From assembly GCA_913061115.1 (NCBI GenBank), contig CAJXTK010000012.1, forward strand, positions 1-36,713: DNA of 36,713 bases, in the 5' to 3' direction. Below are positions 28,397 to 34,108 of the stretch, piece by piece (the first letter of the stretch is position 1; each line of letters opens with the position of its first letter). The stretch is from an uncultured Haliea sp. (GTDB lineage: Bacteria > Pseudomonadota > Gammaproteobacteria > Pseudomonadales > Halieaceae). Both the position numbers and the translations under genes were made by a program. The notes beneath the pieces are model-generated. The model ran no database searches, was not told the origin of the DNA, and saw nothing but the letters and a program-made list of their open reading frames with translations.

Positions 28397-29323
28397 TTAA
28401 CTGACTGCCACCGGCGTATCCCCGGCCCAATCAACCAACAATTGCTGCGTATCCTGCTGCCAGGGATGAAAGCCCTCAGCATAAAACTCTTTATACAAAG
28501 CCAAACCTCCACTAAAGGCTCCCTGCTTACCGAAGAGTCCAGCCAAGCCTTTGCGCCACAGCGGTAAATTCAATAATTGTCCGTCTTTGCGCAGTATATA
28601 AAACAGCGCTCGTGCCAGTTCCAGGCCAATGAAAAATGTCGCGCGCCTCATGACAGCGATGCGAAGTTCTTCACTACCTCCCACTGCGCGAAATACGTCA
28701 AACGCCACCGATTTGTGCTCCATCTCTTCAGCGGCATGCCAGCGCCACAGTTCGCGCATTGAAGGTTCGGCCTTGTTCATAATCGAATCAGAGCTCAGCA
28801 AAAGTTCTGCCAATACCGCGGTAAAATGTTCGATAGCGACAGTGATCGCCAGGTTTTGTATGGGGGGGAGATTTTTCCTTGCCCAGTCCAGGCGCTTAGT
28901 TAACTTACCCTCGAGTTTTTGCAAGTCATAACCGCGCGCTTCGCACAATGTTTCGTTATACAGCTGGTGTTCCCGGCGGTGAAAACCTTCCTGGCCACAA
29001 AACCCACGAATATGTTCTTGCAACTCTGGATCAGTTATTTCGTCCCTGTAATGCCTAACGGCATCAATAAAGAATTTTTCCCCAGCCGGAAACGTTATCG
29101 ACATGCCATTGAATGCTGCAGTCAGAAACGCGTCATCAGCCAACCACTCACCTCCTAGTGCCGCGGTAATATCATGAGAACGATTGCGCGGCTGAATCTG
29201 CACATTGGCTGGCGTCGTTGTTTGACTGGCTGTCTGACCGGTGGATGTGCTCGCGGCAAAAGTGCCCGAGCGGTTATTTGCCTCTTCGGCGGGCTGCATA
29301 ATGTTGGGCGTAGTCGATAACAT
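28397..29323 (-). CDS. PF10118 predicted metal-dependent hydrolase (diiron ferritin-like)
   Basis: A 308-residue protein of the predicted metal-dependent hydrolase family. The ligand-like residues lie in a ferritin-like pattern: Glu82 (FPAGEKFF), Glu112 and His115 (GQEGFHRREH), Glu165 and His166 (AIEHFTAVLAELLL), and Glu199/Glu202/His203 (WHAAEEMEHKSVAFDVF). This suggests a diiron centre, though no catalysed reaction is established. The first 45 residues are Ser/Thr/Gln-rich and probably disordered. GGAG lies seven bases before ATG. It is divergent from the AraC regulator, and the intervening DNA contains a 22-bp repeat array, so AraC-dependent control is likely. Confidence 0.87.
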   Translation of the reverse strand: MLSTTPNIMQPAEEANNRSGTFAASTSTGQTASQTTTPANVQIQPRNRSHDITAALGGEWLADDAFLTAAFNGMSITFPAGEKFFIDAVRHYRDEITDPELQEHIRGFCGQEGFHRREHQLYNETLCEARGYDLQKLEGKLTKRLDWARKNLPPIQNLAITVAIEHFTAVLAELLLSSDSIMNKAEPSMRELWRWHAAEEMEHKSVAFDVFRAVGGSEELRIAVMRRATFFIGLELARALFYILRKDGQLLNLPLWRKGLAGLFGKQGAFSGGLALYKEFYAEGFHPWQQDTQQLLVDWAGDTPVAVS

Positions 29324-29368
29324 AACGGAGCTCCAATGGATGTGGTTGGTTAAGAATGTGTATTCTAG

Positions 29369-29398
29369 TTGACAGACTCCTATGAACAGGAGTTATAT
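29369..29398 (+). promoter_or_regulatory. predicted sigma-70 promoter of the AraC gene
   Basis: TTGACA (29369-29374) and TTATAT (29393-29398) are spaced by 18 bases on the plus strand, a good -35/-10 pair about 85 bases before the preferred AraC start. The -10 box lies within the first copy of the 22-bp repeat array, so a protein bound there would compete with polymerase. Confidence 0.5.
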
Positions 29399-29471
29399 AC
29401 AGTCAGGTGAGGAGTTAAATACCCTCAATATACGAGTTAAATACAGTCATTTAGTGGGTTATATACCTCCA
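29390..29471 (+). promoter_or_regulatory. four-copy 22-bp direct-repeat array, probable AraC operator
   Basis: Four related 16-base blocks begin at 29390, 29412, 29434 and 29456, exactly 22 bases apart: GAGTTATATACAGTCA, GAGTTAAATACCCTCA, GAGTTAAATACAGTCA and GGGTTATATACCTCCA. The six-base spacers are unrelated. Spacing of about two helical turns puts all copies on one face of the DNA, like the araI1-araI2 direct half-sites of AraC. The array lies between the divergent AraC and PF10118 genes. Because 22 is not a multiple of three and the blocks are DNA-conserved, the region is regulatory rather than coding, which argues against the in-frame start at 29382. Confidence 0.8.
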
Positions 29472-29483
29472 ACAGGCGGCGCG

Positions 29484-30467
29484 ATGCACTCGTACTATAT
29501 ATCAACACTATTGCAGGTATTGGAACCAAACAACGTGTCACGAGCGCAGCTATTGGACGGAACAGGGCTGGAAGATGCTGATCCGCAGGCCGCAATTAAT
29601 CTTACAGCACTGCAACTTAATACCGCTTGTATCAATGCACTGGAGATTTCTAAGGACAGCCAATTGGGTCTGAAATTTGGCAGCCAAATCAGCATCGCAT
29701 CTCAGGGTATCTTCGGTTACGCAATGATGGCCAGTGCCACCATTGGTGACGCGCTCAAATTATTGGTGCGGTACAACAGGATAATATTGCCCAGCATTGG
29801 CATTGAGCTGCAGAGGCACGACACCGCATTGGAGTTATGGGTTAAGGCCAGCCACCTCCCGGAAGTGCTAGAGCGTTTTTATACAGAGGTGCTTTATGCA
29901 GCGGTCATCAATAGCGGCAGCATCTTACTCGGCCGCTACACAGCCACCAGCAATCTTCAGCTAGGCTATGCGCCGCCAAGTGATATTAGTTTGTATCACA
30001 AAATTTTTGACTCGGAAGTACGCTTCAACGCGTTGCGCAGCGCCATGTTTTTTGATTACGTCAATCTCGACTTGGCTATTTCAACGTCCAACCCTATTGC
30101 GCGCGATATTTTTCGACGGGAGTGCGACCGCCTCGTTTCACGCGACAGCAACGGCGGCATGGTGAGCGAACGCGTGCAGAAAATTCTTTTGCAAGCTGGA
30201 TCTGAGTTTCCAACATGCGCCAAAGTGGCAACGCAATTGCACATGAGTGAAAGTACGCTGCAGCGTCATCTGCAAAAAGAAGGGAACCGTTATCAGCACT
30301 TGTTGGATCAGTTGCGTTATCGCCTCGCCATGGAATATCTTCAGGGCACTAATCTTCCCGTTGCGGAGATCGCTAATTTGTTGGGGTTCAGCGATGCGGC
30401 CAATTTTCGCAGGTCATTTAAACGTTGGTCGGCAACCACGCCCTCGGCTGTGCGTGAAGAAGTATAG
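29484..30467 (+). CDS. AraC family regulator, OruR/ArgR-like
   Basis: A 327-residue regulator from the ATG at 29484 (AGGCGG upstream). The N-terminal Arabinose_bd-type domain reads SYYISTLLQVLEPNNVSRAQ, TACINALEISKDSQLGLKFG and IFGYAMMASATIGDALKLLV, as in OruR, ArgR and lipid-responsive AraC proteins. The C-terminal HTH_18 has two helix-turn-helix units: CAKVATQLHMSESTLQRHLQ and VAEIANLLGFSDAANFRRSF, followed by the KRWSATTPSAVR signature. The frame is open to an ATG at 29382, but that extension covers the repeat array. It probably activates the divergent PF10118 gene and controls itself. Confidence 0.92.
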   Translation: MHSYYISTLLQVLEPNNVSRAQLLDGTGLEDADPQAAINLTALQLNTACINALEISKDSQLGLKFGSQISIASQGIFGYAMMASATIGDALKLLVRYNRIILPSIGIELQRHDTALELWVKASHLPEVLERFYTEVLYAAVINSGSILLGRYTATSNLQLGYAPPSDISLYHKIFDSEVRFNALRSAMFFDYVNLDLAISTSNPIARDIFRRECDRLVSRDSNGGMVSERVQKILLQAGSEFPTCAKVATQLHMSESTLQRHLQKEGNRYQHLLDQLRYRLAMEYLQGTNLPVAEIANLLGFSDAANFRRSFKRWSATTPSAVREEV

Positions 30468-30820: not shown

Positions 30821-31474
30821 TTATTTGTCTGACCCCAGCAGCATGGATACCAGCATATCAGCATGGCCCTCGACCATGCTGTCTTCACAGGGGTCTACGT
30901 CAAACAGGTCCTGGCACTCGGCGGCAAAAGAGAAGATCGTGGACGTGGCACTGATCATAATGTAGTACCAGTGAATAAACGCATCTCTATCAAGCCCCTG
31001 GATTTCGTTCACCAGTTTTTCCATGGCCGCTGTGGCGGGCCGTATATGATGCTCGATCATGTACTGGGTGCGCCAGCTATGCTGGGTGGCTTCCTGTGCT
31101 ACCAGCCGACTCAACTCGGGATGGCGGGCATGAAAGTACACATAAAAACGCACTACGAAGGCCAGGCTGTTACGGCCAGACATCTCCTGGCTAATGAGCA
31201 GGCGCTGATCGAACTCTGTTTTCATTAGTCCATAGATGTCATCGGTAACTCTTTTCCACAGGGTATCCTTGTCATCGAAGTGATACGCCAGCAGGTTGCG
31301 CTTAACTCCCGCCGCATTTTCAAGGTCTCGCACAGATACTCCGTCAAAGCCGCGCTCTGAAAACATCACCGTGCCCGCCTTAATAAGCTTGGCACGGGTA
31401 ATTTCAGCTCGCTCCTGCACTCGGCGGGTCCGTTTTGTCGGCGTTTCGGGCTTGGTTTGCTTGTTCTGGGGCAT
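30821..31474 (-). CDS. TetR family regulator beside the TonB receptor
   Basis: A 217-residue TetR/AcrR protein. A basic N-terminal tail (KQTKPETPTKRTRRVQER) precedes the helix-turn-helix (AGTVMFSERGFDGVSVRDLE, NAAGVKRNLLAYHFDDKDTL). The ligand domain is like TetR_C_33/CerR-type (YFHARHPELSRLVAQEATQ, HWYYIMISATSTIFSFA). It is divergent from the TonB-dependent receptor gene. One short inverted repeat, TTGTC-TTCT-GACAA (31552-31565), lies in the shared upstream region and is a weak operator candidate. Control of the receptor by a lipid- or aromatic-type ligand is inferred. Confidence 0.9.
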   Translation of the reverse strand: MPQNKQTKPETPTKRTRRVQERAEITRAKLIKAGTVMFSERGFDGVSVRDLENAAGVKRNLLAYHFDDKDTLWKRVTDDIYGLMKTEFDQRLLISQEMSGRNSLAFVVRFYVYFHARHPELSRLVAQEATQHSWRTQYMIEHHIRPATAAMEKLVNEIQGLDRDAFIHWYYIMISATSTIFSFAAECQDLFDVDPCEDSMVEGHADMLVSMLLGSDK

Positions 31475-31693
31475 TTTTGGCTCTTATGCTCTGCTGCTTA
31501 GGAGCTGGAGTTACAGTGGAATAAGCTCTCCTCTAACGCAGCTTATTAAACTTGTCTTCTGACAAATAACGTGGCAAAATCTCATGAAATTTGTTTACAG
31601 TCAAGTTTAATATGGATTTGGCAAACAAAGCCAGATCGCACCAATGATAATGCGTATCTTGGAAAATATCATGCTCTTAAAGGATTTATGCTG

Positions 31694-34108
31694 ATGAAGC
31701 ACCCACTGCACCAATACCAACGTACGATACTTTTTGCCGCTCTGACCAGCCTGTCTGCTAACTCGATGGCGCAGATGGTGCTTGAAGAAGTCGTCGTTAC
31801 TGCGTTCAAACGTGAAAGTAACCTGATGGACACGGCCGCATCATTAAGTTCCTTCGATGAAAGCATTAGAAACCAACTAGGCATCGACACCGGTGCTGAT
31901 ATCGCACGGCACACACCATCACTAACGATTGCACCGAGCAGAGTCAGCATTCGAGGTGTGGGCCGTTCCACCGTGGCCCTAGGGTCTGACCCCGGTGTCG
32001 GCATTTATGTGGATGGCGTGTATACCACCGAAACCGATATTTTTGGCTATTCAAATTTTCTGGATATAGACCGAGTAGAGGTACTTAGGGGGCCGCAGGG
32101 TACCCTATACGGCCGAAACTCCATTGGTGGCGCGGTTAATTTTATCAGCACACAGCCTAATAATGAGGCCTGGGGCGGCACGGTGGTTGTCGAAGCAGGC
32201 AATTATGATTACCTAGTCCTGCAAGGGCTAGTGAGTGGCCCGGTCACCGAGGATTTATCGGCATTAGTGGCGCTTTCAACGATCACGCGTGAAGGCTTCC
32301 AGAAGAATGAAGGCAGCGACAAGCGTTTCGATGAACAAGACAGCGTGTATGGCACCGTTCATTTACAGCACGATACAACTGCTCATTGGACCAACTCACT
32401 CAAGGTGTTTAGGGTCAAATCTGATCGCAAAGGCACACAACCCTATGTACTAGACCCTTGGTCAACGGATTTTATTCAACCGATAAACTATGTCAGTGAT
32501 GGCAGGCCCGCTAACTTCTCTGGGATGTTTCCAAACCAGAATTTTGCCAATGGCCAGCAGGGTGCGACTCGTCAAAATCCGGCATTAGACAATGTGGATA
32601 GAATATCCGTTGATTTCGACCCCTATGTTGACTTGCATCGTAATTCAGCGACCTTTATCAGTGAATATAACTTCGAACAATATACGCTCAAATACACCGC
32701 TGGCTATTCTCAATTTGAGTATAAGTCTGATTTTGATGCCGATGGTATGAAGGCATCGGAATCCGGCCTGAACTGGGGCCAGTTGGCGAACTTGGCCGCG
32801 TTAGGGGGGGGGACGGTTGAAGACGTGACCGGATTCGGCTTGACGCCAGCCATGACCACCCGGCCTTTCACTCAAAAGAATGATTCGTACTCCAACGAAC
32901 TGCAGTTGATTACCGATTTAGACGGTAGCCTTAACTTTATCGGCGGTTTGTATTATTACAACAGTGATGAGAAGCAGACACTGCAGTTTATCGAAGGTAA
33001 TGACGAGCTTATGACGACCTATGCTTATTTTGGTCAATTTCAGGGGCCAGTGAGTGAGGACAACTTCTTGTTTAACGGGCGCTCCGAGCTGAAGACCAAT
33101 GCTTATGCAGTCTATGGTCAAATGGACTGGGACTGGACCGCTAGTACCATGGTAAATGTGGGGCTACGTTATTCTTATGATGAAAAAAAGGGTTCGGATC
33201 AAACCTTTGTGCAGTTTGTCGGCGACCCAGGCCAGCGCAACGCGGATGATGATTGGGATCAGGTGACCTGGCGCATCGGGCTGGATCACAATGTAACCGA
33301 TAATCACTTTCTCTACGGTTTTGTCGCGACCGGTTATCGTTCGGGTGGTTTTAACCTGATGGCGCCAAACGAGACGACTGATGTCAATACCGTGGACCCT
33401 GAAGAGCTTATCTCTTACGAGATAGGTTATAAGGGCACGATGCTTGATGATCGTCTAAAACTGAGCACGTCAGCTTATTACTATGACTACACGGATTTGC
33501 AGGTACTTAAACAGGAACTTATTAACGGTGTGGCTACGCCCGTTTTTGAAAATGCTTCCGATGCTACGGCCTGGGGATTGGAGGGAGAGCTGATGGCATT
33601 GTTGACCGACAGCTTAATGTTTAGCGCGAATTATTCTTACAACAAGACCGAGTATAAAGATTACGACTCGGTTGATACTGTCGCCTGCGCGCTCGGACCG
33701 TTGCAGCAGGGAAACGACTTAGCGCCTCTGTGCACGGAAGAACAGGATCTCAGCGGCAATGAGTTCTTGCTGTCTCCACAGTATAAGGCCTCGGCTAACC
33801 TAGTCTACCAGTGGGAACTTATTGATTTTGATTGGAGTGCAATGGTGAGTTACCAGTACGTTGGTGAACAATATACCAATGCCTTTAACAATGATGAGTA
33901 CGATAAGCTGAAAGCTTATGGCCAGTGGGATGCACGGCTGAATATTTTCTCACCAGATAATATCTGGGAGGCTACGGCGTATGTGAAAAATATTTCAGAC
34001 GACAGGGAATCCATCTACAACGAGCGGCCCAGCACCGTTTCTACGCTTCAGTCACAGGCATTGACTAGCCCACGGATGTACGGCATTAAGCTTACCTACA
34101 ACTTCTAA
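31694..34108 (+). CDS. TonB-dependent outer-membrane receptor
   Basis: An 804-residue receptor counted from the ATG at 31694. AAAGGA lies about nine bases upstream and a signal peptide (QYQRTILFAALTSLSANSMA) follows; longer in-frame starts lack both. The TonB box is LEEVVVTAFKRE. The plug has SIRGVGRS, GVYVDGVY-like GIYVDGVYTT and VEVLRGPQGTLYGRNSIGGA, then a beta-barrel ends in the aromatic LTYNF. The sequence is like the large receptor group of Cellvibrionales and sphingomonads that import hydrophobic or aromatic compounds rather than siderophores; the ligand is not known. Neighbours are TetR (divergent) and epoxide hydrolase (downstream, 230 bases). Confidence 0.95.
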   Translation: MKHPLHQYQRTILFAALTSLSANSMAQMVLEEVVVTAFKRESNLMDTAASLSSFDESIRNQLGIDTGADIARHTPSLTIAPSRVSIRGVGRSTVALGSDPGVGIYVDGVYTTETDIFGYSNFLDIDRVEVLRGPQGTLYGRNSIGGAVNFISTQPNNEAWGGTVVVEAGNYDYLVLQGLVSGPVTEDLSALVALSTITREGFQKNEGSDKRFDEQDSVYGTVHLQHDTTAHWTNSLKVFRVKSDRKGTQPYVLDPWSTDFIQPINYVSDGRPANFSGMFPNQNFANGQQGATRQNPALDNVDRISVDFDPYVDLHRNSATFISEYNFEQYTLKYTAGYSQFEYKSDFDADGMKASESGLNWGQLANLAALGGGTVEDVTGFGLTPAMTTRPFTQKNDSYSNELQLITDLDGSLNFIGGLYYYNSDEKQTLQFIEGNDELMTTYAYFGQFQGPVSEDNFLFNGRSELKTNAYAVYGQMDWDWTASTMVNVGLRYSYDEKKGSDQTFVQFVGDPGQRNADDDWDQVTWRIGLDHNVTDNHFLYGFVATGYRSGGFNLMAPNETTDVNTVDPEELISYEIGYKGTMLDDRLKLSTSAYYYDYTDLQVLKQELINGVATPVFENASDATAWGLEGELMALLTDSLMFSANYSYNKTEYKDYDSVDTVACALGPLQQGNDLAPLCTEEQDLSGNEFLLSPQYKASANLVYQWELIDFDWSAMVSYQYVGEQYTNAFNNDEYDKLKAYGQWDARLNIFSPDNIWEATAYVKNISDDRESIYNERPSTVSTLQSQALTSPRMYGIKLTYNF

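Follow-up and report, generated by a model that had tools for sequence, protein, structure and literature searches.

An array of four near-identical 16-nt blocks, whose successive starts lie exactly 22 bp (two helix turns) apart, occupies the intergenic space upstream of an AraC-type regulator gene in an uncultured Haliea sp., and it is likely that this array is the operator of the adjacent regulator, through which the divergent gene would be activated and araC itself probably repressed. Arrays of the same block, in two to six copies, recur upstream of every orthologue of the regulator that we recovered, at a near-constant distance from a predicted promoter of the divergent gene.

The array and its flanking genes

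The window, by which we mean the whole 36,713-nt stretch of DNA analysed, contains the array within an intergenic space of 160 nt (29324-29483) between a PF10118 gene and araC (Table 1). At a step of 22 bp the four-copy score in this space is 77/96 matches, and it is 25-35 at all other steps from 16 to 30; the best four-copy scores elsewhere in the window are 52 and 49, and 200 dinucleotide shuffles of the window reached 56 at most. Set against that maximum, the four 16-base blocks at exactly 22 bases reported in the preliminary description are confirmed.

Table 1. Positions of the repeat blocks, flanking genes and presumed promoter elements in the window
Feature	Positions	Strand	Sequence or basis
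Block 1 of array	29390..29405	+	GAGTTATATACAGTCA; covers presumed araC -10; adjoins -35 region of divergent gene
Block 2 of array	29412..29427	+	GAGTTAAATACCCTCA
Block 3 of array	29434..29449	+	GAGTTAAATACAGTCA
Block 4 of array	29456..29471	+	GGGTTATATACCTCCA
AraC-type regulator gene	29484..30467	+	PF12625 ligand domain and PF12833 HTH; start from orthologue alignment and in-frame stops
Divergent gene, PF10118 predicted metal-dependent hydrolase	28397..29323	-	Domain match; gene start 29323
Presumed -10 of divergent PF10118 gene	29362..29367	-	TAGAAT; 22 nt from block 1
-35 position of divergent promoter	29385..29390	-	CCTGTT, poor match; inferred from 17-nt spacing; shares one base with block 1
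Presumed araC -35	29369..29374	+	TTGACA, consensus; 15 nt before block 1; TTGAC kept in orthologues
Presumed weak araC -10 in block 1	29393..29398	+	TTATAT; spacer 18; inferred from sequence

The regulator carries a C-terminal AraC-type helix-turn-helix (PF12833, 69.8 bits, cut-off 33.6; also PF00165, 32 bits, cut-off 26.6), which places it in the AraC/XylS family, and an N-terminal Arabinose_bd domain (PF12625, 104.8 bits, cut-off 27.6), which assigns it to the PF12625 subgroup of that family. It scores below the curated cut-offs for CypR (NCBIfam NF053784, 139.5 bits against 500) and for QhpR (NCBIfam NF049968, 163.9 bits against 250). Its structure model (mean pLDDT 87.0) matches CdpR (5chh; E 2.9e-13) and the N-terminal part of VirS (8rcw; E 2.4e-5, TM 0.74 by target). 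A TetR-type product is encoded downstream (30821-31474).

The ORF listing sets the start of araC at 29382, in which case the array would be coding. We rejected this start, and with it an N-terminal coding extension: the ATG at 29484 (MH...) is kept in the orthologue alignment, and in 18 of the 25 orthologues described below the stretch from the start of the array to this ATG contains an in-frame stop. The preliminary description had itself raised the prospect of a coding array region; on the evidence of these stops the region is not coding.

On the other side of the array, the PF10118 proteins share two invariant ExxH motifs, and the structure model resembles di-iron proteins (AurF, ribonucleotide reductase R2), every match having an E value of at least 0.001. 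Because of the motifs and this weak likeness to di-iron oxygenases, which should be taken as a lead only, the name "hydrolase" may be wrong.

Conservation and distribution of the array

The first search, in 57 related genomes, yielded eight clear orthologues including the window's own; the other seven are 57-93% identical, the next match dropping to 32%, and upstream of the araC start each of the eight carries the 22-bp array. A scan of genome contigs gave 23 named loci, among them Haliea/Halioglobus-like bacteria, Litorirhabdus, HTCC2143, HTCC2148, HTCC2207, Paraglaciecola, Zhongshania and others, making 25 loci with the window and G004. All 25 orthologues (46-93% identical) have a same-strand array of two to six copies upstream of the araC start, and the 72 blocks give the consensus GGGTYAAATACMGTCA. 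There are two copies at 12 loci, three at 6, four at 6 and six at 1; these copy and block counts include the near-identical loci L069 and L070, and a few of the end blocks are weak (for example L086 block 2 at 5.5 bits and L074 block 3 at 6.2 bits).

The first search for block chains presumed the 22-bp step. When it was repeated without this presumption, using a leave-one-out matrix for each locus, 40 of the 41 successive pairs of hits above 12 bits were 22 bp apart and the remaining pair 44, with L085 and L086 each retaining a single block at this cut-off; no opposite-strand block hit occurred within 400 nt of the start at any of the 25 loci. One array found later, ahead of an FMO gene in G345, has a 23-bp step. 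Across the six loci with four copies, every block is conserved (pairwise identity 0.79, 0.84, 0.85 and 0.88) and the 6-nt linkers are less so (0.31-0.50), indicating that blocks 3 and 4 are kept too.

Model R1, with which larger sets of genomes were surveyed, was built from 40 block pairs out of the 42 in which both blocks scored above 12; the two omitted were the third pairs at L069 and L070, which duplicate blocks of the window. Among 390 genomes of the order, the array was found in 16 (R1, E up to 1e-4), the AraC orthologue in 19 (E up to 1e-75) and both in 14. The two genomes with the array only are G167, which has a weaker AraC match beside it, and G277, where the contig ends; of the five with AraC only, the matrix reveals arrays in G120, G252, G297 and G380, and a degenerate copy is present in G197. 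Among 369 genomes of the class, array or AraC orthologue occurred only in the window's own. The linkage of the array to this AraC clade is thus near-perfect, and the co-occurrence supports the earlier reading of the blocks as half-sites of the AraC protein, binding being predicted. The block is not general to the PF12625 subfamily, since AraC paralogues of about 30% identity carry a different leader motif: the 22-bp block pair is absent from 21 paralogue loci (L019-L040 without L038, which is too short), and 16 of these 21 leaders have a motif of their own, TTGTCAAAATGTGGTCATTTGTGGCCAAAT, in three similar units about 11 bp apart.

Within the window's assembly (G000, 3.08 Mb, 285 contigs) neither the block-pair pattern with up to three mismatches nor R1 found a further array, the latter giving one match at E 0.28. 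In each of the eight first genomes R1 found this locus only, plus a second copy in G006; other hits had E above 0.1. The regulon that the preliminary description proposed to look for with GAGTTAWATAC pairs did not appear: single matches with up to one mismatch were not commoner than those of the reversed control (18+22 vs 45+28), and the motif-pair search gave no second array in the window's own assembly. A cytochrome P450 gene (21986-23230) and a TonB-dependent receptor gene (31571-34108) in the same window are both without a block pair.

Promoter geometry, partner genes and alternative readings

On the divergent strand, all 37 arrays have the pattern TAnnnT at a distance from block 1 of either 21 nt (10 arrays) or 22 nt (27), against 0-5 arrays at any other offset. 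This count excludes the degenerate copy in G197 (R1 E 0.144) and the loci L062, L145-L147, L150-L152, L154 and L155, which come from the same genomes as named loci; the later-found arrays of G345 and G380 are counted apart. On the araC strand, 20 of the 25 orthologues have TTGAC 20 or 21 nt ahead of block 1; it is missing from its place in the other 5, which keep the divergent -10; the TTGACA of araC adjoins that -10. A sigma-70 promoter scan of the region gave no match at the scanner's cut-off, and the araC -10 is for this reason regarded as weak.

The fixed distance between TAnnnT and block 1 appears to be the geometry of an AraC/XylS site abutting a -35 region. Judged by geometry alone, at predicted promoters, the proximal half-site abuts or overlaps the -35 in all 37 arrays, as in an activator site, and the direct half-sites are spaced by about two helix turns (22 bp for 40 of the 41 successive hits). 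In the direction of the divergent gene each block reads TGACNGTATTTRACCC, with the TG end promoter-distal and the CC end promoter-proximal; block 1 abuts the predicted divergent -35 position and block 2 lies 22 bp farther, resembling an AraC/XylS direct half-site pair. Through contact with RNA polymerase, the AraC protein bound there would turn on the divergent gene, while its binding to block 1, over the araC -10, and to blocks 2-4, in the araC leader, may hold araC down. The predicted repression of araC is less secure than the predicted activation of the partner gene, because the TTGAC is missing in 5 of 25 orthologues. Two earlier suggestions gain support from this geometry, namely that block 1 covers the araC -10, given the TTGAC kept at the matching place in 20/25 orthologues, and that one array may act in both directions, given in addition the divergent -10 at 21-22 nt in 37/37 arrays.

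The divergent partners comprise PF10118 proteins, acyl-CoA dehydrogenases, AlkB (an alkane 1-monooxygenase; PDB 8sbb, E 2.4e-133), P450-reductase fusions, SDRs and one PQQ_2 protein, so that the neighbours of the array in relatives are often genes for alkane- or lipid-oxidising enzymes. On the AraC tree, calculated by a quick method from 35 rows with L141 left out and with some deep forks unsettled, the partner gene changes at least six times while the array stays, and copy number changes at least seven times. Four arrays have no adjacent full-length araC. In G006, a second four-block array (L061:5213-5345) is flanked by a class II aldolase gene and by a remnant of araC only a few codons long, and changes in its block core suggest that it may be decaying; in G233 (HTCC2207) and G345 the array lies ahead of an FMO-like monooxygenase gene and behind an SDR gene; and in G380 it stands before a desaturase-family gene (PF00487) and has TATAAT 22 nt away. 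A -10 at 21-22 nt is retained on the same side in each of the four, which argues for a role for the gene on that side and not for araC alone; the TTGAC is intact in one of the four (G345). In HTCC2207, a region of about 7 kb (L139:3021-10360) contains two AraC paralogues of the clade next to AlkB and SDR-FMO genes, along with three arrays, one of which has a weak second block.

That the array might serve araC alone, the regulator binding its own leader and blocking its own transcription with the divergent gene no target, would fit its position just upstream of the araC start in 25/25 orthologues and its retention when the divergent gene changes. We nevertheless regard this as improbable, since it leaves aside the -10 fixed on the divergent side in all 37 arrays, the arrays that still face a promoter where no full-length araC adjoins, and the five orthologues that have lost TTGAC but not the divergent -10. 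A slightly lower probability is given to binding by another protein, such as the TetR-type product encoded at 30821-31474 or a global regulator: the TetR-type gene lies downstream and binding by AraC is itself a prediction, yet array and AraC clade are present together and absent together in the surveys of order and class, and block anatomy and direct orientation match AraC/XylS sites, whereas TetR proteins normally bind inverted repeats.

Blocks 2-4 lie downstream of the presumed araC transcription start and could in principle act in RNA, as an element of the mRNA leader controlling translation of araC; this we hold to be very improbable, because exact 22-bp steps with loosely kept linkers are the mark of a signal on one face of DNA, and because, where no full-length araC adjoins the array, the blocks are located upstream of the partner promoter and are not part of the partner transcript. 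The frame that is open through the array in the window might point to a chance repeat or to an N-terminal extension of the protein, but hardly any weight can be given to either in view of the score of 77 against at most 56 in the shuffles, the stops in 18/25 orthologues and the persistence of the array down to 46% protein identity.

Known regulators and the meaning of the array

AraC-type promoters usually have two half-sites, and two of the closest known systems, XylS/Pm and SphR, follow this pattern. The ligand domain of XylS differs from that of the AraC protein in the window. In the XylS/Pm system of the TOL plasmid, as described, a pair of homologous direct repeats, 15 bp long and both containing an A box and a B box, adjoins the RNA polymerase site (PMC5481539), and the 16-bp blocks with 6-bp linkers found here are similar, although only two sites, with other box sequences, are described for Pm. 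SphR of Pseudomonas aeruginosa, an AraC-family lipid sensor that responds to sphingosine, is reported to recognise the half-site TGNCCSNNRNNSNCC in two direct repeats 6-8 bp apart (PMC3900636); likened by that description, it is close in outline to TGACNGTATTTRACCC plus 6 bp here, with two half-sites per promoter as opposed to up to six.

VirS of Mycobacterium tuberculosis is described as controlling the adjoining mymA operon, led by a Baeyer-Villiger monooxygenase, and as having an enclosed hydrophobic ligand cavity (PMC13234193; PDB 8rcw/8rcx). It is related to the AraC protein of the window by sequence profile and N-terminal fold, remotely so, with 13% identity in the fold match. Given this cavity in a related fold and the adjoining monooxygenase operon, a hydrophobic ligand such as an alkane or fatty acid is plausible for the AraC protein by analogy. 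AlkR, beside alkM in Acinetobacter, and CypR of Alcanivorax/Dietzia are likewise described as AraC/XylS activators beside alkane hydroxylase genes (PMC8784404), like the AlkB and P450 partners of the array. The AlkR operator is given in the same source as an inverted repeat, whereas the blocks here are direct, and no inverted-repeat operator of that type was found at the 25 loci (0 opposite-strand block hits).

As far as these descriptions go, the predicted site anatomy is that of known AraC/XylS activators (PMC5481539, PMC3900636). What differs is the presence of up to six in-phase sites through the leader of the regulator, with all blocks conserved in the four-copy group; a literature search at the level of titles and abstracts, with subscription papers mostly outside its scope, returned none that describes such an array. 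It is possible, though we think it doubtful, that the regulator forms polymers on DNA, kept in a fixed two-turn register, and that the steepness or threshold of a lipid/alkane-induced switch depends on how many half-sites are present (2 to 6); that extra sites sharpen the switch is offered as a hypothesis only. If the polymerising reading were true, gain or loss of 22-bp units would be the means by which lineages adjust the switch, and the enzyme gene under its control would be exchanged meanwhile. The natural series of 2, 3, 4 and 6 sites, in which spacing and block sequence are the same throughout, makes the effect of site number directly testable, and the array can be used to search for genes controlled by this clade of regulators, which is little studied and is associated with alkane/lipid oxidation in marine bacteria.
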